A stretch of 64,000 nt of DNA from Marinomonas sp. SBI8L. GTDB taxonomy: Bacteria; Pseudomonadota; Gammaproteobacteria; Pseudomonadales; Marinomonadaceae. The stretch lies in contig NZ_JSEO01000009.1 of the NCBI RefSeq assembly GCF_001624705.1, positions 158,614 through 222,613 on the forward strand, given 5' to 3'. The position numbers and the translations under genes were made by a program. Below the pieces are notes generated by a model. That model was given only the letters and a program-made list of their open reading frames with translations, did not search any database and was not told the DNA's origin. Positions 626 to 53,852 of the stretch are shown here, piece after piece (positions within the stretch are counted from its first letter, which is position 1; each line of letters opens with the position of its first letter).

Positions 626-2065
626 TTAAGAGGCTTGTGCTTCCCTATGTTGAGGTTTAACCATGTTCTTTGGTTGTAAGCAGGTTTTAAGCTCTTTTTC
701 ATCCATGAGGTTTTCATCTAACACCAGATCTAACACACTGCGACCAGTGGCTAGAGCCTGTTTAGCAACACGGGTTGCTGTTTCATAACCCAGAGTTGGC
801 GCTATGGCTGTGATAATGCCAATGCTGTTATTTACCAACTCTTGGCATCTATCTTTATTGGCTGTAATCCCTTGAATACAGCGTGTTTCTAGCATGCCCA
901 TGGACTTAGTCAGTAGACGAATAGACTCAAGTACCTTGTAGGCAATTAAGGGTTCCATGGCATTGAGTTGAAGTTGGCCCGCTTCTGCAGCAAAGGTAAT
1001 CGCAAGATCATTCCCCATGACTTGATAAGCCACCTGATTCATGGCTTCTGGGATCACAGGGTTAATCTTGCCTGGCATGATTGAGCTACCTGGTTGTGCT
1101 GCAGGCAGTTGGATTTCAGCTAAACCACAGCGAGGGCCCATGCTTAAAAGGCGTAAGTCGTTGGATATTTTCGATAGCTTGACGGCTAAGCGTTTCAACA
1201 TACTAGAGAAAAGAACAAAGGCGCCCATGTCAGAGCTTGCTTCGATTAGATCTGTAGCAAGAATAAAATCTATGCCTGTTAGGTTTGCTAACTCTTGTAC
1301 GGCTAGTGGCGCATAATCTGAGTGGGTATTAATGCCTGTGCCAATTGCTGTGCCACCCAGATTTACTTCTTTAAGTAACTGGGACAGGTCAGCAATTCGT
1401 TGAATATCTTCGTTTAGCGTACTGGCAAAAGACTGGAACTCTTGCCCTAGAGTCATGGGTACTGCATCTTGTAGCTGAGTACGGCCCATCTTGATAATGT
1501 CGTTAAACTCTAACGCTTTATTGCTAAAGGTATCGCGCAAAGAGGTCAGGGCTTCAACCAGTTGGCTATGCAGTAAAATAATGGAAAGGCGAACGGCAGT
1601 TGGATAAACATCATTGGTGGATTGGGATTTATTGATGTCATTATTTGGGTGAAGGTGAGTATAGTGTCCCTTCTCCTTACCCATAAGTTCTAGGCCAATA
1701 TTAGCGATAACTTCATTGGCATTCATATTGGTGGACGTACCTGCCCCACCTTGAATCATGTCGACAACAAAGTCTTCATGGTGATAGCCCTGTAGAACTT
1801 TATTGGCCGCAGCCTCTATGATTTGTGTTTTGTGATCGGACAATTGCCCCAGCTGATTATTGGTTTTGGCGCAGGCAAGTTTCACATAAGCTAGCGCATT
1901 AACAAGCTCAGGAAAGTGATTGATAGGTATGCCTGATAAATCAAAGTTGTGGCATGCGCGGCGGGTTTGAATACCATAATAAGCACTTTTAGGCACATCA
2001 AGTTCGCCTAATAAGTCTTTCTCTTTGCGCATGGATTGCAATGTGTCAGTCGCTGGTGTGTGCAT
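626..2065 (-). CDS. aspA: Aspartate ammonia-lyase (aspartase)
   Basis: This 479-residue protein has the length of E. coli AspA and catalyses the reversible conversion of L-aspartate to fumarate and ammonia in the cytoplasm. The fumarase/aspartase superfamily signature GSSIMPGKINP is at about residues 326-336, and the substrate-binding segments GGAGTSTNMNANEVIAN (about 106-122) and HPNNDINKSQSTNDVYPTA (about 139-157) are of the aspartase rather than fumarase C type. It is the first gene after a sigma-54-type promoter at 2140-2155 and is followed by a symporter gene. The product, the transporter and the upstream two-component system together suggest growth on acidic amino acids. Confidence 0.95.
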   Translation of the reverse strand: MHTPATDTLQSMRKEKDLLGELDVPKSAYYGIQTRRACHNFDLSGIPINHFPELVNALAYVKLACAKTNNQLGQLSDHKTQIIEAAANKVLQGYHHEDFVVDMIQGGAGTSTNMNANEVIANIGLELMGKEKGHYTHLHPNNDINKSQSTNDVYPTAVRLSIILLHSQLVEALTSLRDTFSNKALEFNDIIKMGRTQLQDAVPMTLGQEFQSFASTLNEDIQRIADLSQLLKEVNLGGTAIGTGINTHSDYAPLAVQELANLTGIDFILATDLIEASSDMGAFVLFSSMLKRLAVKLSKISNDLRLLSMGPRCGLAEIQLPAAQPGSSIMPGKINPVIPEAMNQVAYQVMGNDLAITFAAEAGQLQLNAMEPLIAYKVLESIRLLTKSMGMLETRCIQGITANKDRCQELVNNSIGIITAIAPTLGYETATRVAKQALATGRSVLDLVLDENLMDEKELKTCLQPKNMVKPQHREAQAS

Positions 2066-2139
2066 CTTGTTCTCATTCTTATCATAATTATTTCAAGCAA
2101 TTTCAGGCTTAAAGCCTGTGCTTGATTAGTGAACTAGAT

Positions 2140-2155
2140 TGCAATTCGGGGGCCA
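2140..2155 (-). promoter_or_regulatory. Sigma-54 (RpoN) -24/-12 promoter of aspA
   Basis: On the minus strand the bases read TGGCCCCCGAATTGCA. This matches the consensus TGGCACG-N4-TTGCW with the GG and GC elements at the correct spacing; only two of the defined positions differ. The predicted start would be near 2129, leaving a leader of about 64 nt before the aspA start. An NtrC-family activator is encoded just upstream on the same strand. Confidence 0.8.
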
Positions 2156-2277
2156 GTTTTTTATATATGCTTAACTGATTGAAATATAAGGAAAAAATAT
2201 AATATCGAAGAGGGTGAAGGGGTATAACTCAGGGAATAGGGATAAATGACTTTTGATAAAACCCTTATTTATCAGTT

Positions 2278-2318
2278 GGTTAGCTTGCTAACCTAGGTTA
2301 TAGAATTAACCTAGGTTA
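2278..2318. promoter_or_regulatory. Tandem palindromic sites, probable activator-binding (UAS) region
   Basis: Two copies of the perfect 12-bp palindrome TAACCTAGGTTA lie at 2289-2300 and 2307-2318, 18 bp apart. A further inverted repeat GGTTAGC-TT-GCTAACC at 2278-2293 overlaps the first. They lie between the stop of the response-regulator gene and the sigma-54 promoter, about 135-180 bp upstream of the promoter, which is where NtrC-family activators normally bind. That the neighbouring regulator binds here is inference. Confidence 0.65.
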
Positions 2319-2345
2319 TAGGGGTTAAATTAGGGTAGGAAGCCG

Positions 2346-3767
2346 TTACTGGCTATTCGCCTTTTTAATGCGTTTACTTAAAGCTGGTTGAGAGATTCCC
2401 ACAAGGCGGGACGCAATAGACTGGTTACCTTTGGCTCTTAACATGGCTTCTTCTATCAGTAGATCACCAATTTCAGTTAGGGAGGGTAAGCTTTGTTCTG
2501 GGTTAAAGCTGATACAAGCTTGTTCTTCTGTGCTATCAGTCCAAGCTTGAGATAAGTCTTTAGGGCTGATGAGATCTTTAAATGAATCCATAGATAACAT
2601 CTTGCTACGATGTAACCCCATTGCTTTAAATGCTAGCGCTCTTAGCTCTCGTACATTGCCAGGAAAGGCATAATTAGATAATAAAACAGGCAGTTCTTTT
2701 GGAATAGCTGGCTTAGTTTTATTCAACTCGGTTGCGGCTTCTTCAAGAAAAAGGTCGAGCAGAATGGCGATGTCACCACGGCGTTGGCGCAGTGGCGGGA
2801 TACTGACTTGATGGGTTTGTAAGCGATAATAAAGGTCTTTTCTAAACTCGCCTGCTTCTTGTTTTTGCGTTAAATCCTGATGAGTAGCGACCACGACTCT
2901 GGCATTAAGGCGTTTAGGGTGGTCACTGCCAAGTGGATAGTATTCACCTTCTTGCAATAAGCGCAGTAATTTCACCTGAGACATCAGGCTCAAATCACCT
3001 ATTTCATCTAAAAATAAGGTACCACCATTGGCTTGTTCTATCATGCCTGCTCGAGCTTTTTCGGCTCCTGAAAAAGCCCCTCGGCTATGACCAAATAGGG
3101 TATCGGAGAACATATTATCATCCAGCCCAGCCACGTTAACACTGACAATGGGGCCAGACTTGTGACTCAGTTTGTGAATCGCTTGGGCGATGAGCTCTTT
3201 ACCCACACCGCTTTCACCATTAATCATAATTGGCTGGTTACTGGCAGCAATCGCTTCTAAATACTGGAAAATAGAACGCATGTTTTTGTCTAGGGTGAGA
3301 ATGCTTTCGAACACTTCTGGGTGTTCTAAGGTGTCATTCAAAAACCGAGACCTTAATTTGTCATTCTCAGAGCGCATTTCGATACTGCGAATGGTGCGCT
3401 TGATACCTTCGATTAAGTGTACTTCGTCTGTGGTTTTGACAAAGTAATCCAAGGCCCCCAAACGTATGCATTGCATGGCAATCTCGATTTGATTGAGACC
3501 ACTGATAATAATGACCTTTACATGAGGGTGCGTTTCTAGAATTTGCTCAAGCAGCGACATGCCCGTCACATTGGGCATGTTGAGGTCTAGCAGCACAAGC
3601 TCAATCGGGTGTTGCTCTAACATATCTAGCACATTACGACTGTCATTGGTTTGGAACAGGTGATTAATACCGCCACGACGTTTGAGTGTCATGGTTAAAC
3701 TGCGTAAGAATGAATCTTCATCGTCGACTAATAAAATGCCAAAGTCTGGGTAAAGGTTGTTACTCAT
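2346..3767 (-). CDS. Sigma-54-dependent response regulator (NtrC/DctD family)
   Basis: The 473-residue protein has a receiver domain (about residues 9-125; phosphoacceptor D61 in LVLLDLNMP, conserved K111), a sigma-54-interacting AAA+ domain (Walker A GESGVGKE at 184-191, Walker B GGTLFLDE at 248-255) and a C-terminal Fis-type helix-turn-helix ending at the C-terminus. The sigma-54 contact loop reads GAFSGA (230-235) instead of the usual GAFTGA, a conservative change. The start codon overlaps the stop of the sensor-kinase gene by 4 bp (ATGA), so the two are translationally coupled. It probably activates the aspA-symporter promoter at 2140-2155 after phosphorylation by the neighbouring kinase. 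Confidence 0.9.
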   Translation of the reverse strand: MSNNLYPDFGILLVDDEDSFLRSLTMTLKRRGGINHLFQTNDSRNVLDMLEQHPIELVLLDLNMPNVTGMSLLEQILETHPHVKVIIISGLNQIEIAMQCIRLGALDYFVKTTDEVHLIEGIKRTIRSIEMRSENDKLRSRFLNDTLEHPEVFESILTLDKNMRSIFQYLEAIAASNQPIMINGESGVGKELIAQAIHKLSHKSGPIVSVNVAGLDDNMFSDTLFGHSRGAFSGAEKARAGMIEQANGGTLFLDEIGDLSLMSQVKLLRLLQEGEYYPLGSDHPKRLNARVVVATHQDLTQKQEAGEFRKDLYYRLQTHQVSIPPLRQRRGDIAILLDLFLEEAATELNKTKPAIPKELPVLLSNYAFPGNVRELRALAFKAMGLHRSKMLSMDSFKDLISPKDLSQAWTDSTEEQACISFNPEQSLPSLTEIGDLLIEEAMLRAKGNQSIASRLVGISQPALSKRIKKANSQ

Positions 3768-5554
3768 GCATGTGCCTTTTGGTTAGCTTTTAGATTAAAT
3801 ATAGGGAGAGTCAGAGTGACAGTGGTGCCCTTTTTCAAAACGGATTCAAAGCTGAGTTGCCCGCCATGCTCACTGACAATATTGGACGAAATAGACAGGC
3901 CTAACCCTGTTCCGCCTTGGTCCCTTTTAGTGGTGAAGAAAGGGTCTTCTAATCGTTTGAGGTTTTCAATGGCGATACCACAACCCTCATCTTTAATTTC
4001 TAATACCAGCAAACCTTTGCTTCTATCCATATAGGTTCTGATATCGATGCTTTTCTCTCTTGAGGTGAGCGATTGCGCAGCATTAAGGATGAGATTGATG
4101 ATGACCTGCTCAATGCGTTGTGCACTGCCTAAAAAGGTCGGTAATTTATCTTCAAATTTAATGCTGACATTGTCACTGTAATTTCTGACGGTTTGCTCTA
4201 TTAATCGATAGGAGGTAGAAACCAACTGATTAATATCCACATGCTCTGTCAGTTCAATATTTTCTTGGCGACCAAAATCCCTAAGATCATCAACGATACG
4301 GCTAATACGCTGACTGCCTGCCATCATGTCATTAAGCATCTTAGGTAATTCATCTCGCATGAGGGAGTATTCAATGCCAGCCAGATAAAACTCACCTTCT
4401 TTTTGATAATGATCCTCAAGAATTTCTTCGAGATCTCGGTGTACTTCTTGAATGGCGGGAATGTTAAGTAGCATCAGGCTACAAGGGTTATTAATTTCGT
4501 GAGCAACCCCTGAAACCAGCACCCCTAAGGAAGCCATTTTGTCCGCTTGAATTAATTGCTGTTGTTGTAACTCAAGCCTTTGGGTTCGTTTGAGCACTTC
4601 TTTGGAAAGCATACGGTTCCAAATGAGTGATCCTCCTAAAAAGAGCAATAGTAAGGACGAGACGATAAGGGTGAATTGGCCAATAAGCTTCCAATCTGGC
4701 CCTTGATTACTTAAAGGCCCTAACCATTTGTCATAGATTTCTTGTTGGCGTCCGGTATTTTTTAAGATGGCCATACCTTCACTAAATTTAGCGATTAGGT
4801 TTTCATTTTTTTGTAGCGCGGCGTAACCATACCTTTGGGTGCCATAGGGTTGAGTAATGGACCTTAAATTAGAAAGTGCGAGTTCTTTCCCTAAATACAG
4901 GCCAGGTAAGTTAGCTACTAAGGCATAATCATTCGCCCCCGACGCGACTAAGCGCAGGGCATCTGCATGGGTCTTAACCAGTACTAGCTCGGCGTTTACC
5001 TTATTTTCAACCAGATAATCGTGCATGATGCCTTGATCTTGTACGACTAATCCTTGGCCTTCAAAGTGATTCAAATTGCTAATTAAAGGTAAACCCTTTC
5101 GAGTGAAAATAGATTGATTAATCAAGGCGTGGGAAGGGGAAAAGGATAAGGTCTTGGCGCGAGAATCTGAATAGACCATACCCTGTAAAATATCGATTTC
5201 TTGGTTATCTAATTGCTGGCGGACACTGCTCCAGCTATCAAAAACAAATTCAACCTTCATGCCCATGACTTCAGCAATTGCCAAGGTCAGCTCCGTATTA
5301 TAACCGTCAGGTTCTCCTTGGCTGTTAAGGAATTCATAGGGCGGGTAATTAACATCACCACCGATACGAATCACCTGATCTTGGGCGAAAAGGGACAGGG
5401 AAAATAGCAAACTAGCCACTAACAAGAGACCATTTAATAGGACTTTATTCGTGAAAATCGCCTCTTTAAGCTTTAAAAAGGTTAGCTGTAAAGTCTTTAG
5501 ACTAAGGCCTGCTTTAGCTTGGTTATGGGTGTGTTTTTTTCGAGAGTCAGACAT
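3764..5554 (-). CDS. Sensor histidine kinase with periplasmic solute-binding domain
   Basis: The 596-residue protein has an N-terminal membrane segment (about residues 38-57), a periplasmic domain of the SBP_bac_3 amino-acid-binding type (about 60-280, beginning IRIGGDVNYPPYEF), a second membrane segment (about 292-312), a DHp domain with H352 in the H-box GVAHEINNP, and a HATPase domain with N-box NLILNAAQSL and G-boxes DEGCGI and GTGLGLSI. It probably binds an amino acid or organic acid directly in the periplasm and phosphorylates the overlapping NtrC-type regulator. The N-terminal 35 residues before the first helix are unusually long and basic, so a later start is possible, although no better in-frame start is evident. 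Confidence 0.9.
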   Translation of the reverse strand: MSDSRKKHTHNQAKAGLSLKTLQLTFLKLKEAIFTNKVLLNGLLLVASLLFSLSLFAQDQVIRIGGDVNYPPYEFLNSQGEPDGYNTELTLAIAEVMGMKVEFVFDSWSSVRQQLDNQEIDILQGMVYSDSRAKTLSFSPSHALINQSIFTRKGLPLISNLNHFEGQGLVVQDQGIMHDYLVENKVNAELVLVKTHADALRLVASGANDYALVANLPGLYLGKELALSNLRSITQPYGTQRYGYAALQKNENLIAKFSEGMAILKNTGRQQEIYDKWLGPLSNQGPDWKLIGQFTLIVSSLLLLFLGGSLIWNRMLSKEVLKRTQRLELQQQQLIQADKMASLGVLVSGVAHEINNPCSLMLLNIPAIQEVHRDLEEILEDHYQKEGEFYLAGIEYSLMRDELPKMLNDMMAGSQRISRIVDDLRDFGRQENIELTEHVDINQLVSTSYRLIEQTVRNYSDNVSIKFEDKLPTFLGSAQRIEQVIINLILNAAQSLTSREKSIDIRTYMDRSKGLLVLEIKDEGCGIAIENLKRLEDPFFTTKRDQGGTGLGLSISSNIVSEHGGQLSFESVLKKGTTVTLTLPIFNLKANQKAHA

Positions 5555-5593
5555 CTTATTCCAACAAGTGTTAGCAATTTTGCGCGAATGGAT

Positions 5594-5618
5594 AAATTCA
5601 TCTTAAATGAAATTCATC
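5594..5618. repeat. Direct repeat upstream of the sensor-kinase gene
   Basis: The 9-mer AAATTCATC occurs at 5594-5602 and again at 5610-5618, 16 bp apart, in the 151-bp gap upstream of the sensor-kinase gene. A tandem arrangement with near helical-turn-and-a-half spacing could be a regulator site, but nothing links it to a protein. Confidence 0.35.
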
Positions 5619-5705
5619 CTTTGAATCTATTACTTATTTCGCCAGACACAAAGAATGTCTAAATTCTAAAAAGAGGGTATTTAATGACTAAAACGTGCAA
5701 TCACA

Positions 5706-6278
5706 CTATTTCTTAGTTTGCTCTGGAAAGGTTTCTCTCAGTTTCTTTTTAACTTCACTGGCGGCACCTTTAGGGCTATCTCCTTGCCATGACCAAGACT
5801 CAGTATGAAACTGATATGCCTTGTAGTTCTGGCTTTTAGCTTCACCTTTAACAAAATGGCTGAGACAGAGCACTGTGACAAGCGGTTTGTCTTGATGCCA
5901 AAAAAAAGCGGCATTTGAATTGAATAAGCGCCACTCATGACATAATTCGAACTCTAGTTTCAATAGGGATAAATGCTTTGAAAAGACTGGCATTTCAGTT
6001 TTTGAATAATCAAGAGAGATTTCTGATTTTGATTCATCTAATATTGATTCTTCCTCCTCGGTCGAAGAGTGGGCTATATCTTCTTGGTGCGTACTAGGGT
6101 GTTCTGGGTGAACAACGTCTGTGACGACTGAGTGGATTTGCATCTTCTTTTCTTGAGGCTGGGTTGGCTCGTTAGAGCGGCTATCTCTAGCTTGTCTCTC
6201 TTGTTCTTCTTGGTGCTCTTTTCTTTTTACTAAAATAAAAATGATGATAAATAGACTTATCGCAAATAATAACCACAT
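5706..6278 (-). CDS. Membrane-anchored protein of unknown function
   Basis: I do not recognise this 190-residue protein. It begins with a single hydrophobic segment (residues 2-17, WLLFAISLFIIIFILV) followed by a charged region rich in E, Q, R and K. A low-complexity linker (about 35-90, with HPEHPSTHQED and STEEEE) leads to a more globular C-terminal domain (about 95-190) with several aromatics, including WSWQGDSPKGAASEVKKKL. The layout suggests a protein tethered to the inner membrane with a cytoplasmic C-terminal domain. It stands alone between the two two-component systems, with 87 bp to the EnvZ-like gene and 151 bp to the other kinase gene. Codon use looks like that of its neighbours. 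Confidence 0.7.
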   Translation of the reverse strand: MWLLFAISLFIIIFILVKRKEHQEEQERQARDSRSNEPTQPQEKKMQIHSVVTDVVHPEHPSTHQEDIAHSSTEEEESILDESKSEISLDYSKTEMPVFSKHLSLLKLEFELCHEWRLFNSNAAFFWHQDKPLVTVLCLSHFVKGEAKSQNYKAYQFHTESWSWQGDSPKGAASEVKKKLRETFPEQTKK

Positions 6279-22353: not shown

Positions 22354-22550
22354 ATAAAGGTTCCTAATGTGGGCTAACTGACAATAAGACAAAACCCCGT
22401 CGCCCACATTGGAACAGGAATTTGTCTTAAGTCTCATTAATCCCAGTAGGACTTCTTTACCACGAACTTGAGGTTCGATTATGTTGATAAAGAACCTTGT
22501 CAGCTTTAATGTGCCACTGGCAAGGAAATTACTCCCTTAAGAGGGTCGAG
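22354..22550 (-). promoter_or_regulatory. yybP-ykoY-type (manganese) riboswitch with expression platform
   Basis: The minus-strand leader contains GGGAGTA (near 22531-22538) and, further on, ATCAACATAATCG (near 22478-22490), which resemble conserved loop segments of the yybP-ykoY motif as in E. coli mntP. The platform has two mutually exclusive pairings. One joins 22360-22374 with 22402-22415 and sequesters the ribosome-binding site; the other joins 22385-22393 with 22421-22429 (TAAGACAAA/TTTGTCTTA). The class is assigned by memory of the consensus, not by a covariance model. Confidence 0.72.
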
Positions 22551-48429: not shown

Positions 48430-48505
48430 ATCTTGATGTATGGCGTTAGTATTCGCTAAGTAAGAACTTTTTTGAGTGTTTTTTCATTTAATTTGCAAAA
48501 AACAG

Positions 48506-48533
48506 TTGACGAAGAATCTGACTTGCATATAAT
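48506..48533 (+). promoter_or_regulatory. Promoter of the first tRNA-Leu
   Basis: TTGACG (48506-48511) and TATAAT (48528-48533) are separated by 16 bp, just upstream of the tRNA. Confidence 0.8.
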
Positions 48534-48547
48534 GCTCGCCATTCCTT

Positions 48548-48632
48548 GCGGGAGTGGTGGAATTGGTAGACACGCTGGTTTTAGGTACCAGTGCTTTACG
48601 GCGTGAGAGTTCGAGTCTCTCCTTCCGCACCA
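48548..48632 (+). tRNA. tRNA-Leu (UAG), first copy
   Basis: The 85-nt sequence folds with a 7-bp acceptor stem (GCGGGAG/CTTCCGC), a long variable arm and encoded CCA. The anticodon loop TTTAGGT between CTGGT and ACCAG gives anticodon TAG, reading CUA and, with wobble, other CUN leucine codons. Confidence 0.95.
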
Positions 48633-48640
48633 AGAATTCG

Positions 48641-48675
48641 AAAAAACCGATACTTTATAAGTGTCGGTTTTTTTT
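48641..48675 (+). terminator. Terminator after the first tRNA-Leu
   Basis: The stem AAAAACCGATACTT/AAGTGTCGGTTTTT with a TATA loop is followed by a T-tract. Confidence 0.85.
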
Positions 48676-48704
48676 CGTCTGTAGAAAATAGATTTGATTT
48701 GGGG

Positions 48705-48777
48705 GTTGGTTTTAAATATCAGTGCTTTACGGCGTGGCTTTTTATGGAAGAGAAGTCGAGCCTTCCTTACAATGCCA
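48705..48777 (+). pseudogene. Decayed tRNA-Leu copy 1
   Basis: The segment keeps GGTTTTAAATATCAGTGCTTTACGGCGTG-like anticodon-arm/variable-region sequence, AGTCGAGCC from the T arm and GCCA at the end, but has lost the acceptor and D arms and part of the T arm. It cannot fold as a tRNA. The residual anticodon loop reads TTTAAAT. Confidence 0.75.
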
Positions 48778-48800
48778 AGCCATTACCTTTTAAAGGGCAA

Positions 48801-48834
48801 AGAAACCGATACTTTTTAAGTGTCAGTTTTTCTT
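48801..48834 (+). terminator. Terminator after decayed tRNA copy 1
   Basis: AGAAACCGATACTT/AAGTGTCAGTTTTTCT repeats the hairpin that follows the intact tRNA, with one mismatch. Confidence 0.6.
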
Positions 48835-48914
48835 TAAAAGAGAGGGGAGGAGGTTACTGAATTATAAGGCTTTGAGTAGTTTGGAAAATAATTAAACTAT
48901 TTTTCACAAAAGGC

Positions 48915-48942
48915 TTGACTGAAATTCAAACTAACCTATAAT
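48915..48942 (+). promoter_or_regulatory. Promoter of the second tRNA-Leu
   Basis: TTGACT (48915-48920) and TATAAT (48937-48942) with a 16-bp spacer, 409 bp after the first promoter. Confidence 0.8.
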
Positions 48943-48956
48943 CTCGCCCACTCTTT

Positions 48957-49041
48957 GCGGGAGTGGTGGAATTGGTAGACACGCTGGTTTTAGGTACCAG
49001 TGCTTTACGGCGTGAGAGTTCGAGTCTCTCCTTCCGCACCA
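48957..49041 (+). tRNA. tRNA-Leu (UAG), second copy
   Basis: This sequence is identical to the first tRNA-Leu across the 85-nt gene including CCA. It begins exactly 409 bp later and is part of the same tandem duplication. Confidence 0.95.
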
Positions 49042-49048
49042 AGAATTC

Positions 49049-49084
49049 AAAAAAACCGATACTTTTTAAGTATCGGTTTTTTTT
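49049..49084 (+). terminator. Terminator after the second tRNA-Leu
   Basis: AAAAACCGATACTT/AAGTATCGGTTTTT with a TT loop and T-tract. Confidence 0.85.
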
Positions 49085-49135
49085 CGTCTGTAGAAAATGA
49101 ATTCAGTAGATTTGGTGTCGTTGCTTTTAGATGTA

Positions 49136-49208
49136 AGTGGTTTTAGGTATCAGCACTTTACGGCGTGGCTTTTTAGGTATGACAAGTCGAGCCACTCCTT
49201 CCGCACCA
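49136..49208 (+). pseudogene. Decayed tRNA-Leu copy 2
   Basis: It keeps GGTTTTAGGTATCAG, CTTTACGGCGTGG, AAGTCGAGCC and the 3' end CCACTCCTTCCGCACCA but lacks the 5' half. It shares the insertion CTTTTT...AAGTCGAGCC with copy 1, so both derive from one decayed gene that was duplicated with its neighbour. Confidence 0.75.
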
Positions 49209-49230
49209 AGTCATTACCTTTTAAAGAGCA

Positions 49231-49265
49231 AAGAAGCCGATACTTTTTAAGTGTCGGTTTTCTTG
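49231..49265 (+). terminator. Terminator after decayed tRNA copy 2
   Basis: AAGAAGCCGATACTT/AAGTGTCGGTTTTCTT hairpin, the fourth copy of the same element. Confidence 0.65.
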
Positions 49266-49511
49266 TCTAAAAGAAGAGGTTACTTTCTTATTTTAGAATC
49301 CTTTCTAATACCGATCTTTTCGCTTTATTCTGGTCTAATTTTGTTGGCTTTTAGTCAGTATGAGATTGATTATCCCTAGGTGTTAGCTTGCCCTGCTTAC
49401 CAAGAGGGTATTCACTTGTTATTATGGTTCGCTCTAATGGAATTTATATTTAATCTAGGGTGCTCCAACAGGCAGGAGCTTTGATCTTGTGAGGATAAGA
49501 TTATCTTTATA

Positions 49512-50552
49512 TTGCGCTTATTAGTTGTCTTTTGTTTGTTTGCTCAGGCGGCTAAGGCTTTTCCTCAAAGTACCGATTCAGCTGTGTTGACTAATCAGGC
49601 TTTTTTTACTCAGTTTCCCTATCAGTGGCCTTTGATGGAACAGCTATCGCTTAAGGTAAAGGCGAGTCCAACCCCAAACTCTGTTGTTCAAGAAAGAAGT
49701 ATTCGAGTTATGTGGGTTATTTCTAATGCTTTCCAGGCAAGAAAGGCCTTTCCTGCTATCGAATTATTCAAACAAAGAATGAAGGCTCTGAAGCTAGATT
49801 ATCAATTGATGGTGATTCAGCATGATGAGGGTACAAGTTACCAAGAGTACATTCAACGCTTTAAGCAAGGCTTGGCATTTCAGCCTGATTATCTGATTTC
49901 CTCATTAACCTCATCAGTAAACCGTAAACTCATCGAGCAAGTACTGATAAAAGGGCAGACGAAAGTCATCGTATTTGATGCAGCGACACCTGTGATTTCT
50001 TGGCTAAATTCCCCTCCTTTAATGTATGTTGGCTTAGACGATAGGGCGATTGCGCGTCGATTTGCACAATACATCGATTCTATTTACCCCTTAGAAACTA
50101 AGATATCCGCTATTATGTTACCAGCAGGTTATGTTAACCAAACTCGCTGTGATGCTTTTATTGACGCCATGCATTCACGTGGTCGTAAGCTTTCTAAAAT
50201 TTTCTACTCTGATGCAACCGAGTTAGATGCTTATCAGTATGTGGTTAAAACCTTTTCTAAGAGTGACAAAACTGAGTTTATTTTTAGCTGTTCATCAGCG
50301 ATTGCTGCTGGTGTTATGAAGGCGGTTAAGGATGACGGTCTTAAACTTTCGACAAATAGTTGGCGCTATACTCCCCAAGAGCAAAAAGCGCTTGATAAAG
50401 GGACCTTGGTTGTCACCTTAGAGAAAGATGTAAAAGAGTTTAGTTTCGTGATAGCAGAAACGATTCAATCGGATTTAACTGGGCATGATTTGCCTAAACT
50501 TTATATTCCTTCATCCGCATTAATTTCTGCGGTATCGCCACTGACTCGTTAA
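49512..50552 (+). CDS. LuxP-like periplasmic binding protein
   Basis: The 346-residue protein starts with a signal peptide (about residues 1-16) and is an ABC-type sugar-binding (ribose/LuxP) fold. Several stretches align by eye with Vibrio LuxP, including FFTQFPYQW, DYQLMVI, PDYLISSLTSSVNRKLIEQVL, ATPVISWLNSPPLMYVGLDD and FIFSCSSAIAAGVMKAV. Of the AI-2 contacts I recall for LuxP, R212 and W284 are kept, but those near residues 70-80, 156, 263 and 304 differ. It lies 15 bp before the LuxQ-like gene. The start is a TTG at 49512; no clear ribosome-binding site or better start was found, so the N-terminus is uncertain. Confidence 0.75.
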   Translation: MRLLVVFCLFAQAAKAFPQSTDSAVLTNQAFFTQFPYQWPLMEQLSLKVKASPTPNSVVQERSIRVMWVISNAFQARKAFPAIELFKQRMKALKLDYQLMVIQHDEGTSYQEYIQRFKQGLAFQPDYLISSLTSSVNRKLIEQVLIKGQTKVIVFDAATPVISWLNSPPLMYVGLDDRAIARRFAQYIDSIYPLETKISAIMLPAGYVNQTRCDAFIDAMHSRGRKLSKIFYSDATELDAYQYVVKTFSKSDKTEFIFSCSSAIAAGVMKAVKDDGLKLSTNSWRYTPQEQKALDKGTLVVTLEKDVKEFSFVIAETIQSDLTGHDLPKLYIPSSALISAVSPLTR

Positions 50553-50567
50553 AGGGATTATTAAATT

Positions 50568-53150
50568 ATGGCAATGGATAAGGTTGCAGTAAGTCTAAGA
50601 AAGCGACATAGGATGCAAATTGCTCTTGTACTTATGTCTGTTTATATTTTAGTGGCTATTGTGCTTTTGTTTGTTACCAAGGATCAAATTGAGCGTGATA
50701 ATCAAGCAGATCTTGCGGTTCGACATTTTACGGTTTCACAGGCTTTACATGGTTTTTTGTTAAGTGCTGAGTATGAGTTAAGCAGTACAGTACAAGTCTT
50801 GCTAAATACAAAAAAACAAATGGACCTAGATTTGGGGCGTTTATTTGATCGCCATGATGAGTTCTTGTTCGGCAGTTTAGACTTCTTTTATGTAGAGTGG
50901 GCTGAGCAAGGAAGCATATTAGACCCAAGAACCCATTTGTTTACTCAAGACTCAATAGATAGGCTTATTGCTAAGTCTAAATTGGGTCGCTGGACTTTGC
51001 AGCAAACCCAAGATGGTGCAAGCATTCTGATTAACAAGAAAAAAATTGTGAACCTAGATGGTGACTGGAAAGGTTATCTATATGGTTTTATATCGCTTAA
51101 CAATAATGTCACCTTAGCAAATCGATTACTAAAGAGTGCTGAAATAGATGAGATAAAACTCTTATCTCCTGAACAAGATATCCTGTTGTCTGAGCGTCAT
51201 TTATCTTTACCAGAAAACTTAGCATTAAACTTCTATCGCGCAGATTTACAGATAGTAAAAGAAGGCTTAGCTTTCGATCTACAAATAGCCAAACAGGTGG
51301 CTAGTTCCAGCACTGTCTGGCAAAGATACCTATATTGGATGGTTTTCTTTAGCATAGGTTTGTTCCTCTTGTACTTTGTGCTTGTGCAGTTATCTCAGCG
51401 TTTATTTAACCATGCGCTGCATATGTTTGAATTGGGGCTTGATTCTGATGATGAGTCAGAGTTTATCGAGCTAAGGCACTTACAGCGTAAAATGAATGAT
51501 AAAAGTGCTCAGGTGAGTAATCAGTTAAGCCGATTCAATTTATTAATGGATGCTTCAAATGCAGCCATTATTTTTTGTGATGATGTGGCCTTGGTGCAAA
51601 ACATTAATCATAAAGCCAGTACCTTATTCTCCGAAAGTAACCGTGGCCGAACTGTATTTGATTTCATGCCTGTTGCTTGTCATCAAGCATTACAAAAAGC
51701 CTTAAAGGGTGAAGTCGGAATAGAGTTTGAGCTGACGATTCCAAATGTAAATAGTATTTATCAGTGGCAGCTCATTCCTTATATGACAGATAGCCATTAC
51801 CGAGGCGTGGCATTAATTGGGCATGATGTTACTCATATTCAACAGTTAGAATGGCAATTGAATGAGCTAAAAGTGGAAAGCTATGGACCATCAAGCTCGG
51901 TTGAAATAGATCTCATATTAAATGAGATTAATCATCAAATCGTTTTCTTTGATACCGAGTCTTTTGTTGAAGCTAGAAATTGGCAAAAGGCGATAGTCAC
52001 CTGTTTAAGTGAGCTTCTTAATGAGCCCTCTAGCATGGATCAAATTACATTAGGTGATTTGTTGCAACAGCGCCTTTTACTGACGCCTTGTGACTTAGGT
52101 AGGTTTGGCTATCTTAAAATTGAGTGTGATCTAGCGTCTGCTTTGGTGCAAAGTCGCTGGAGTACGGATTTAGGTTTATTAATTAATGCCTTGGTTTTGT
52201 CTGTACATGCTAGTGAGTTAATTGAAGAAAAGCGGCTTTCAATTTGTGTAACAGAAAATCAATTACGTTTTGAAGTGGTTGGTATCAGTGATACTCGACC
52301 TATTTTTGCTTGGTTAAATAAAACTATTTGTGGACGTTTAGGGATAGAAGCAAAACGGGTTAAGACGAATCAGATCTCCATTGTATATCCTTTAGGAGAA
52401 ACACCTCTCGGCCGTATTAACTTGCCTGATAATATTAAAGTTGCTTGGTTGGCAAATGATTATGCTATGGCCAATCAGGTTGAAGCTGTGCTGAAGAAAC
52501 TAAACTGCTCTGTACATGCATTTTCTTCCGCTGAAAGCTTTTTTACAGAAGTGGGTAGTACGGACGAGATAGATATCCTATTAATCGCTTATGACGAATT
52601 ACAGCCTGAGTGGCGAGAGCTGCCTGCTATTTTGCAAACTCGATTGGCACGCCAAAGAATTCCTGTCGCTTGGGTAGGTAATCAAGATAAGCATGAGATA
52701 GATGGCTACCCTAATTTCTCTGCTTGTGCACATGAGTACAGTCTCGCAAGATTTATTGAACCAATTTTAAGTTTGGATAGCATCGCCTTACAGGACTGTT
52801 TGGCAGATGATGATGCTTGGTTAGTTGTGGGTGGTTCAAGTATCAGTCGTGCGATATTGTATGAAGAGCTTACCCAGCTTAAAATATCCCCTTATTTGGT
52901 ACCTTCATTAGAAGGTCATTTATCACTATTTAGCCATCAAAAAGTTAAAGCCGTACTCTTGTTAGATGATGTGGATAATGAGCATATTATTTGGCTAAGA
53001 AAAGAGCACGCTAATCTGATGATAGTGTCTTTGAGTTCAGCTCCCAGTTCTGGGGTTAATCAATATCAAATGAAAAAACCTTATCGTAAAGAGCAAGTGA
53101 AATCCCTAGTTGAATTTGTTCATAATAAAATCGCCCTGTTTGAGGAGTAA
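50568..53150 (+). CDS. LuxQ-like membrane protein with degenerate kinase and receiver domains
   Basis: The 860-residue protein has TM1 (about 17-37), a periplasmic domain (38-252) resembling the LuxQ sensor, TM2 (253-275), and a PAS domain (about 322-428). Residues 430-500 hold no H-box histidine, and 500-612 resembles a HATPase fold but lacks the N-box and DXGXG/GXGLG motifs. Two receiver-like domains follow (about 622-735 and 750-856). In the first the phosphoacceptor position is A674; in the second the acidic pair is G755-G756 (VVGGSSISR), although K837 remains. It is therefore probably not an active kinase. It lies 3 bp before mtnN. Confidence 0.75.
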   Translation: MAMDKVAVSLRKRHRMQIALVLMSVYILVAIVLLFVTKDQIERDNQADLAVRHFTVSQALHGFLLSAEYELSSTVQVLLNTKKQMDLDLGRLFDRHDEFLFGSLDFFYVEWAEQGSILDPRTHLFTQDSIDRLIAKSKLGRWTLQQTQDGASILINKKKIVNLDGDWKGYLYGFISLNNNVTLANRLLKSAEIDEIKLLSPEQDILLSERHLSLPENLALNFYRADLQIVKEGLAFDLQIAKQVASSSTVWQRYLYWMVFFSIGLFLLYFVLVQLSQRLFNHALHMFELGLDSDDESEFIELRHLQRKMNDKSAQVSNQLSRFNLLMDASNAAIIFCDDVALVQNINHKASTLFSESNRGRTVFDFMPVACHQALQKALKGEVGIEFELTIPNVNSIYQWQLIPYMTDSHYRGVALIGHDVTHIQQLEWQLNELKVESYGPSSSVEIDLILNEINHQIVFFDTESFVEARNWQKAIVTCLSELLNEPSSMDQITLGDLLQQRLLLTPCDLGRFGYLKIECDLASALVQSRWSTDLGLLINALVLSVHASELIEEKRLSICVTENQLRFEVVGISDTRPIFAWLNKTICGRLGIEAKRVKTNQISIVYPLGETPLGRINLPDNIKVAWLANDYAMANQVEAVLKKLNCSVHAFSSAESFFTEVGSTDEIDILLIAYDELQPEWRELPAILQTRLARQRIPVAWVGNQDKHEIDGYPNFSACAHEYSLARFIEPILSLDSIALQDCLADDDAWLVVGGSSISRAILYEELTQLKISPYLVPSLEGHLSLFSHQKVKAVLLLDDVDNEHIIWLRKEHANLMIVSLSSAPSSGVNQYQMKKPYRKEQVKSLVEFVHNKIALFEE

Positions 53151-53153
53151 TAT

Positions 53154-53852
53154 ATGAGTTTGGTCGCTATTATTGGCGCAATGGAAGAAGAAGTCGCCCT
53201 AATAAAAGGCTGGATGACAAACCTTGAGACCCAGTCAATTGCGGGTTGTGAGTTTTATCAAGGGCAGCTAGACGGGAAAGACGTGGTATTGCTGCAATCT
53301 GGTATTGGTAAAGTAAACGCCGCCGTTTCTACTACCTTGCTTTTATCAAAATTTGCGCCGTCTAAAGTGATTAATATTGGTTCTGCTGGTGGTTATGCTC
53401 AAAGCTTAAACGTAGGTGATGTGGTTATTTCTGATCAAGTTTGTCATCACGATGTTGATGTTACTGTGTTTGGTTACAGCATGGGTCAAGTGCCAGGTAT
53501 GCCTGCAACTTATGCTGCGGATGACGCTTTAATTGCAGAGGCGAAAGCGGCTGTAGCAAGACTTGATCTAGTTAAGGCTGAAGTGGGTCTTATCGGAACA
53601 GGCGACAGCTTTATGCAAGACCCAGTAAGAGTTGAGAAGGTAAGAGCGGACTTTCCTGCTTTACTTGCTGTGGAAATGGAAGCGGCTGCAGTTGCGCAAG
53701 TATGTGTTAAGTTTGAAACGCCTTTTGTGGTTGTTCGTGCTTTATCTGATATTGCGGGTAAAGAGTCGTCACAAAGCTTTGAAGAGTTTCTAATTGTTGC
53801 TGCTAAAAACTCGTCAGCCATGGTACGTGAAATGCTAAGTGCACTTAATTAA
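53154..53852 (+). CDS. mtnN: 5'-Methylthioadenosine/S-adenosylhomocysteine nucleosidase
   Basis: The 232-residue enzyme (Pfs) splits adenine from S-adenosylhomocysteine and methylthioadenosine. It shows AIIGAMEEEVALIKGWM at the N-terminus, GIGKVNAAVSTTLLL, INIGSAGGYAQSLNVGDVVISDQVCHHDVDVTVFGYSMGQVPG and the catalytic-Asp region VVVRALSDIAGKESSQSFEEF. The product S-ribosylhomocysteine is the LuxS substrate for autoinducer-2. It follows the LuxQ-like gene by 3 bp, an operon link not usual for this gene. Confidence 0.95.
   Translation: MSLVAIIGAMEEEVALIKGWMTNLETQSIAGCEFYQGQLDGKDVVLLQSGIGKVNAAVSTTLLLSKFAPSKVINIGSAGGYAQSLNVGDVVISDQVCHHDVDVTVFGYSMGQVPGMPATYAADDALIAEAKAAVARLDLVKAEVGLIGTGDSFMQDPVRVEKVRADFPALLAVEMEAAAVAQVCVKFETPFVVVRALSDIAGKESSQSFEEFLIVAAKNSSAMVREMLSALN

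Follow-up and report, generated by a model that had tools for sequence, protein, structure and literature searches.

The window analyzed here (64,000 nucleotides of Marinomonas sp. SBI8L, NZ_JSEO01000009.1, positions 158,614 to 222,613 of the forward strand) carries three + strand open reading frames (ORFs) at 49512-53852 that we call P, Q, and mtnN, separated by intergenic gaps of 15 bp and 3 bp. P (49512..50552, +; 346 aa, TTG start) encodes a LuxP-like periplasmic binding protein, Q (50568..53150, +; 860 aa) a membrane pseudo-hybrid-kinase, and mtnN (53154..53852, +; 232 aa) a 5'-methylthioadenosine/S-adenosylhomocysteine (MTA/SAH) nucleosidase that scores 332.8 bits against the equivalog model TIGR01704 (cut-off 73.8). 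A first-pass annotation of the stretch had described this same layout, with which the ORF coordinates agree, and had read the first two genes as relatives of the LuxP-LuxQ receptor for autoinducer-2 (AI-2) in which the kinase appeared to lack its catalytic motifs. mtnN is probably co-transcribed with P and Q. Inside the operon, Rfam returned no RNA elements at gathering scores, and the count of promoter-like and terminator-like sites between 48400 and 54100 was not above that of shuffled sequence. With automatically picked starts, P runs into Q at 32 of 37 loci, and Q runs into mtnN, by 4 or 8 nt, at 15 of 36; neither overlap occurs in the window.

The layout of Q follows that of a LuxQ-type hybrid kinase—a first transmembrane helix (TM1), a LuxQ-type periplasmic sensor domain (residues 48-243; 50709..51296, +), a second transmembrane helix (TM2), a PAS-like domain (residues 321-433; 51528..51866, +), a counterpart of the dimerization and histidine phosphotransfer (DHp) and catalytic and ATP-binding (CA) domains, and two receiver-like domains. 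The PAS-like assignment comes from an hhalign alignment to a PAS-bearing LuxQ-like kinase and from weak PAS matches. The pseudo-DHp-CA core is composed of a helical hairpin without an H-box (residues 447-484; 51906..52019, +) and a Bergerat-type CA fold without G1 or G2 (residues 489-608; 52032..52391, +), the latter matching kinases by Foldseek and VIA. Profile matches, column counts, and secondary structure place pseudo-receiver 1 at residues 621-730 (52428..52757, +), and fold places the second receiver-like domain at residues 747-860 (52806..53147, +). LuxQ_Vibrio, an NCBIfam equivalog, matches Q over residues 128-437 only (8.5e-13) and at 47.1 bits against a cut-off of 1200; in sequence, the likeness to LuxQ is confined to the first half of Q. 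The LuxQ-like layout noticed at first pass is borne out, and Q falls well short of equivalog status.

Q retains this architecture with the recognized chemistry removed. HisKA, HATPase_c, and Response_reg gave no match at E<=1 in the 30 Q members scanned, a set outside which lies the Q (L107) of the nearest relative, G325. As a control, 12 canonical LuxP loci were fetched and the proteins beside LuxP were scanned in 10 (L100 and L102 being left out), with HATPase_c found in nine and GGDEF-EAL in the tenth. Patterns for the H-box, G1, and G2 were absent from residues 430-620 in all 37 Q proteins, whereas the same scan recovered them in 5/5, 5/5, and 3/5 control kinases, respectively, and the residue preceding the invariant Glu453 of Q is never His (0/37). 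The profile span of pseudo-receiver 1, residues 613-724, matches the receivers 2b4a (1.9e-4) and 7c1j (1.1e-3) by hmmsearch, and its phosphoacceptor column, 674, holds Gly in 33 of 37 proteins and Ala in the other four; this segment is a receiver fold without the phosphoacceptor Asp, and hence a pseudo-receiver. Residues 747-860 are modeled as a second receiver fold.

The kinase core and the second receiver are unseen by sequence profiles—profile-profile comparison of residues 430-625 with kinases returned nothing, the HATPase profile scored no better on Q than on shuffles, and PDB profile searches with residues 430-620 alone and 738-860 alone gave no credible match—so that homology in these parts rests on fold, taken from among the matches listed and implying nothing about other folds. 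The core is predicted to be folded, with a predicted local distance difference test (pLDDT) of 84. With a kinase fold kept, catalytic motifs lost, and the gene under selection (see below), Q is a probable pseudo-histidine-kinase. The profile scan and the structural model, both suggested as checks at first pass, thereby agree with the original impression that the catalytic residues are missing.

P is a LuxP homolog, as proposed (8e-35 to solved LuxP by phmmer; Pfam Peripla_BP_4, 1.8e-13), and the P rows form a single clade in the tree (38/38 rows, support 100/100; the P of L044, under 300 aa, was left out). We compared 39 rows of this clade with 13 canonical LuxPs, drawn from the window's genome, G325, and other families of the order, at the residues that we take to be the AI-2 contacts of LuxP (Q77, S79, W82, N159, R215, T266, D267, W289, and R310). 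The canonical proteins keep every contact in 13/13 cases, except R215 (12/13). The P clade instead keeps Q77, W82, T266, and D267 in none of its 39 rows, R310 in one, N159 in 11, S79 in 20, R215 in 32, and only W289 in all, and it carries Cys213 throughout (39/39), where all 13 canonical LuxPs have Gly. Because most AI-2 contact residues are lost in the clade, AI-2 is, judging from sequence, an unlikely ligand of P, and the suggestions that the operon senses AI-2 or acts as a decoy for it are not supported by this comparison; the sugar-binding fold suggests a sugar-like ligand.

The operon is a genus-wide trait of Marinomonas. Q was found in 36/36 genomes of the genus and 0/21 genomes of other families, and by profile in all 49 genus genomes (the G011 copy being in pieces), with one full-length P-Q copy per genome (pieces in one draft). 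Among 293 genomes sampled from the order there were 17 Q matches, 13 of them in Marinomonas over most of the profile and four elsewhere over short segments only, and a pattern-based scan of the genome collection confirmed 37 loci, all Marinomonas. Pfam LuxQ-periplasm matched the window's genome alone among 274 genomes sampled from the class, probably reflecting thin sampling. The order P-Q-mtnN is kept at 30/30 loci in one set (window included) and at 36/37 in an overlapping second set, where the contig of the 37th ends inside Q. A wider block, gapA-pgk-fba-P-Q-mtnN-trmA-serA, is kept wherever the contig reaches (38 loci). In 15 outgroup loci, the surroundings of trmA yielded no gapA, fba, pgk, serA, or mtnN. 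With the order conserved at the genus loci read, neither of the outcomes named at first pass as fatal to its reading—clear kinase motifs, or a gene order missing from relatives with frameshifted homologs—was encountered. In M. pontica, Q lies in several pieces (L066, L108, L109), and in M. rhodophyticola the P ORF is short, at 250 aa (L044); in both, draft error and real loss cannot be told apart.

Across 12 close species pairs, the ratio of nonsynonymous to synonymous substitution rates (dN/dS) was 0.059-0.097 for Q in 11 pairs (saturated in one), 0.042-0.103 for P in 11 pairs, and 0.015-0.044 for MtnN in all 12. Values were low in all Q domains, including the pseudo-kinase region and both receivers; purifying selection acts on every domain of Q, and this conservation probably means, as first proposed, that the protein works without a phosphorelay of its own. 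Within Q, conservation peaks in the PAS-like domain (mean distance 0.452; the periplasmic domain has 0.547 and the other parts 0.64-0.72). Identity to G325 is 70% for P, 82% for Q, and 89% for MtnN, and it reaches 94% in the PAS part; synonymous sites in this comparison are saturated or nearly so. For P and the periplasmic domain of Q, the partial correlation given MtnN is 0.69 in the full set, against 0.16-0.35 for P and other parts of Q, and in each of three taxon sets P is the gene that best matches this domain. Such a pattern is consistent with, though no proof of, a LuxPQ-like complex as the input. L044 and L066 (short P, broken Q) were excluded from the dN/dS and co-variation analyses, L066 also from A4, A5, and A6, and L047 (flanks missing) also from the multi-set co-variation.

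Canonical components occur elsewhere. On another contig, the window's genome encodes a LuxP with all contacts kept and a predicted active-looking LuxQ of 613 aa, in which we found HisKA and HATPase_c and no receiver match. Among the 49 genus genomes, canonical LuxP (75% identity or more) is confined to this genome and G325, other matches reaching 35% or less. The luxS look-up recommended at first pass found the gene in 48 of 49 genus genomes, with no match in G325 (one search of a genome that is 96% complete), and in six of 28 other-family genomes, all of one family. G325 (L107, L114), which retains the P-Q-mtnN operon as well as a canonical LuxP, is possibly a listener that makes no AI-2. In related families (L094 to L104), the protein encoded after LuxP carries either HATPase_c with HisKA or HisKA_3, or GGDEF-EAL, and this variety of adjoining outputs suggests that LuxP is a modular receptor with swapped output. 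LuxQ-periplasm scores over its cut-off beside LuxP in L094, L095, and L096; L094, with LuxQ-periplasm, PAS, HisKA, HATPase, and two receivers, is a live version of the Q layout, and its alignment with Q spans residues 12-432. A third LuxP-like protein of the window's genome (L093, other contig, 1067-5845) is encoded divergently from an ORF that is binding-protein-like by eye and from a GGDEF-EAL ORF; it keeps S79, W82, R215, T266, W289, and R310 and lacks Q77, N159, and D267, and similar layouts occur in L105 and L106.

We favor, with moderate confidence, the reading that P-Q is a two-part membrane receptor derived from LuxPQ that has abandoned AI-2 and phosphate chemistry and delivers its output by contact with a partner; with no recognized chemistry left, contact is what the output of Q should be. 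A small, perhaps sugar-like, periplasmic ligand would close P, and closed P would shift the periplasmic domain of Q. The signal would then cross TM2 and, by way of the PAS-like domain, reach a dimeric pseudo-DHp/CA and the two receiver-like domains, which may form a docking surface that binds and biases a partner without any phosphate of Q's own. By analogy with DivL or RetS, that partner would most likely belong to another system, as its active kinase or its response regulator. Through the probable co-transcription of mtnN and, in many species, its overlap with Q, the capacity for MTA/SAH clearance would be produced along with the receptor.

Several observations weigh against this proposal. 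The full Q model reaches a predicted template modeling score (pTM) of 0.43, its domain arrangement not being resolved, and the PAS-like part has low pLDDT. In the 23-taxon set, P co-varies with other Q domains (0.52-0.61) nearly as it does with the periplasmic domain (0.64). Conservation of the flanking genes matches that of the trio itself, so that gene order says little on its own about a functional tie to mtnN. Finally, the N-box helix of the window's Q has Asn540 followed by Ala541, an N-box-like Asn that none of the other 36 proteins shares, and the same Q has His456 (2/37); His468 occurs in 11/37 and His791 in 21/37. With these residues, Q could conceivably retain some residual phosphate chemistry.

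Of the alternatives, we regard as unlikely that the receptor acts directly on MtnN, its receiver-like tail binding the enzyme and tuning MTA/SAH hydrolysis to an outside ligand. The frequent Q-mtnN overlap argues for such a link, as does the fact that mtnN was found as a single copy in the window's genome, shares the genus split of Q (over cut-off in 36/36 genus genomes and 0/21 other-family genomes of the order, four of which gave weak sub-cut-off matches), and is absent near canonical LuxPs in 12 loci of 11-13 kb, including the window genome's own. This co-occurrence, however, counts as a single event, at the root of the genus. The receivers and MtnN show a partial correlation of 0.42 in 35 taxa that drops to 0.17 in the 23-taxon subset, and serA reaches 0.34 in the full set. 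The tail-MtnN co-evolution signal, promising at first, is thus not robust to the smaller taxon set, and the first-pass idea that Q controls the flow of MtnN product remains conjecture. A related version, quite doubtful, would have P retuned to a sulfur-ribose metabolite, for example the MtnN product 5-methylthioribose, with the receiver-like tail of the dead hybrid kinase holding and adjusting co-translated MtnN; if true, S-adenosylmethionine recycling would be tied to releases of neighbors or algae.

It is very unlikely that P-Q is a relic, a decaying LuxPQ pair retained only through its position upstream of mtnN. Divergence is indeed very fast (the window's Q is 22-31% identical to 36 other members, though 82% to G325), and the two drafts with Q in pieces and a short P could be read this way, but the frames are long and open at the remaining loci, dN/dS is low in all domains, the kinase core is folded, and P co-varies with the periplasmic domain. 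Highly improbable, too, is a mere ligand trap or decoy with no signaling output; the loss of recognized output chemistry would suit one, but a pure trap has no need for a PAS-like domain as its most conserved part or for about 430 constrained residues after it. Least credible is a working LuxPQ-type AI-2 receptor with a merely divergent kinase passing phosphate to a LuxU/LuxO pathway: LuxP and LuxQ-periplasm homology, near-universal luxS, ten Hpt-domain matches in the window's genome, Asn540 and His456 in its Q, and release of the AI-2 precursor 4,5-dihydroxy-2,3-pentanedione (DPD) by a Marinomonas isolate, according to the accessible part of PMC6685064, are outweighed by the missing H-box, G1, and G2, the Gly/Ala phosphoacceptor column, the lost AI-2 contacts, and an operon kept in G325 without a luxS match.

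Compared with Vibrio LuxP-LuxQ (1zhh, 2hj9, 2hje, 3c30), the Marinomonas pair has mostly lost the AI-2 contacts, has no H-box, G1, or G2, lacks the phosphoacceptor of the first receiver, and has mtnN next in line. L094, L095, L096, and L097 resemble P-Q in that LuxP adjoins a membrane protein, but their outputs are HisKA/HisKA_3 with HATPase_c, or GGDEF-EAL, with no mtnN nearby. Q shares a kinase fold with DivL and RetS, both among its fold matches; as excerpted, PMC12189002 describes DivL as a catalytically inactive pseudohistidine kinase and RetS as acting by binding GacS. Unlike either, Q also has a dead first receiver and takes input through a LuxP-type binding protein. Whereas CikA, KaiA, and ShkA are pseudo-receivers (PMC12632262, in excerpt), Q is a single membrane receptor in which a dead kinase core is followed by two receiver folds in tandem. 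Output by contact has precedent in pseudo-kinases and pseudo-receivers alike in the accessible portions of PMC12189002 and PMC12632262, the latter calling the switching mechanisms of pseudo-receivers a mystery.

The operon itself has been glimpsed before. In the accessible text of Rezzonico and Duffy 2008 (PMC2561040), a luxP-like / PAS protein / pfs order is given for Marinomonas sp. MED121, which shares gene order, genus, and LuxP homology with the window operon; MED121 is listed there as luxS-negative, and an AI-2 role is left to experiment. The middle protein is interpreted there as a regulator that carries PAS, AAA ATPase, and DNA-binding domains, whereas we found neither of the last two in any of the 30 Q members scanned. 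That text, as available, reports neither a dead kinase nor genus-wide spread, and literature searches on Marinomonas LuxP, LuxQ, or luxS, or on LuxP/LuxQ with pseudokinase, returned no title on a dead LuxQ there. Four elements we take to be new: conservation of the operon across the genus, structural support for a dead hybrid kinase, the measurements of selection, and the loss of AI-2 contacts. P-Q represents a two-component receptor whose recognized chemistry is gone and whose architecture is kept under selection across a genus, and the canonical LuxP elsewhere in two genomes offers a comparison for a clean test of pseudo-kinase and pseudo-receiver signaling. Marinomonas LuxP homologs, scored as AI-2 receptors by homology in a survey (PMC11069264, accessible part), should not be so scored from homology alone.

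Upstream of P, two tRNA-Leu genes (48548-48632 and 48957-49041) lie inside a duplicated stretch (window 48489-49274) whose repeats share 206 nt at 87% and 137 nt at 80%, at spacings of 409 and 431; the second repeat contains what appear by eye to be tRNA-like remnants. Farther away, a manganese (yybP-ykoY) riboswitch match lies on the - strand at window 22359-22549, scoring 45.2 bits against a gathering score of 45.
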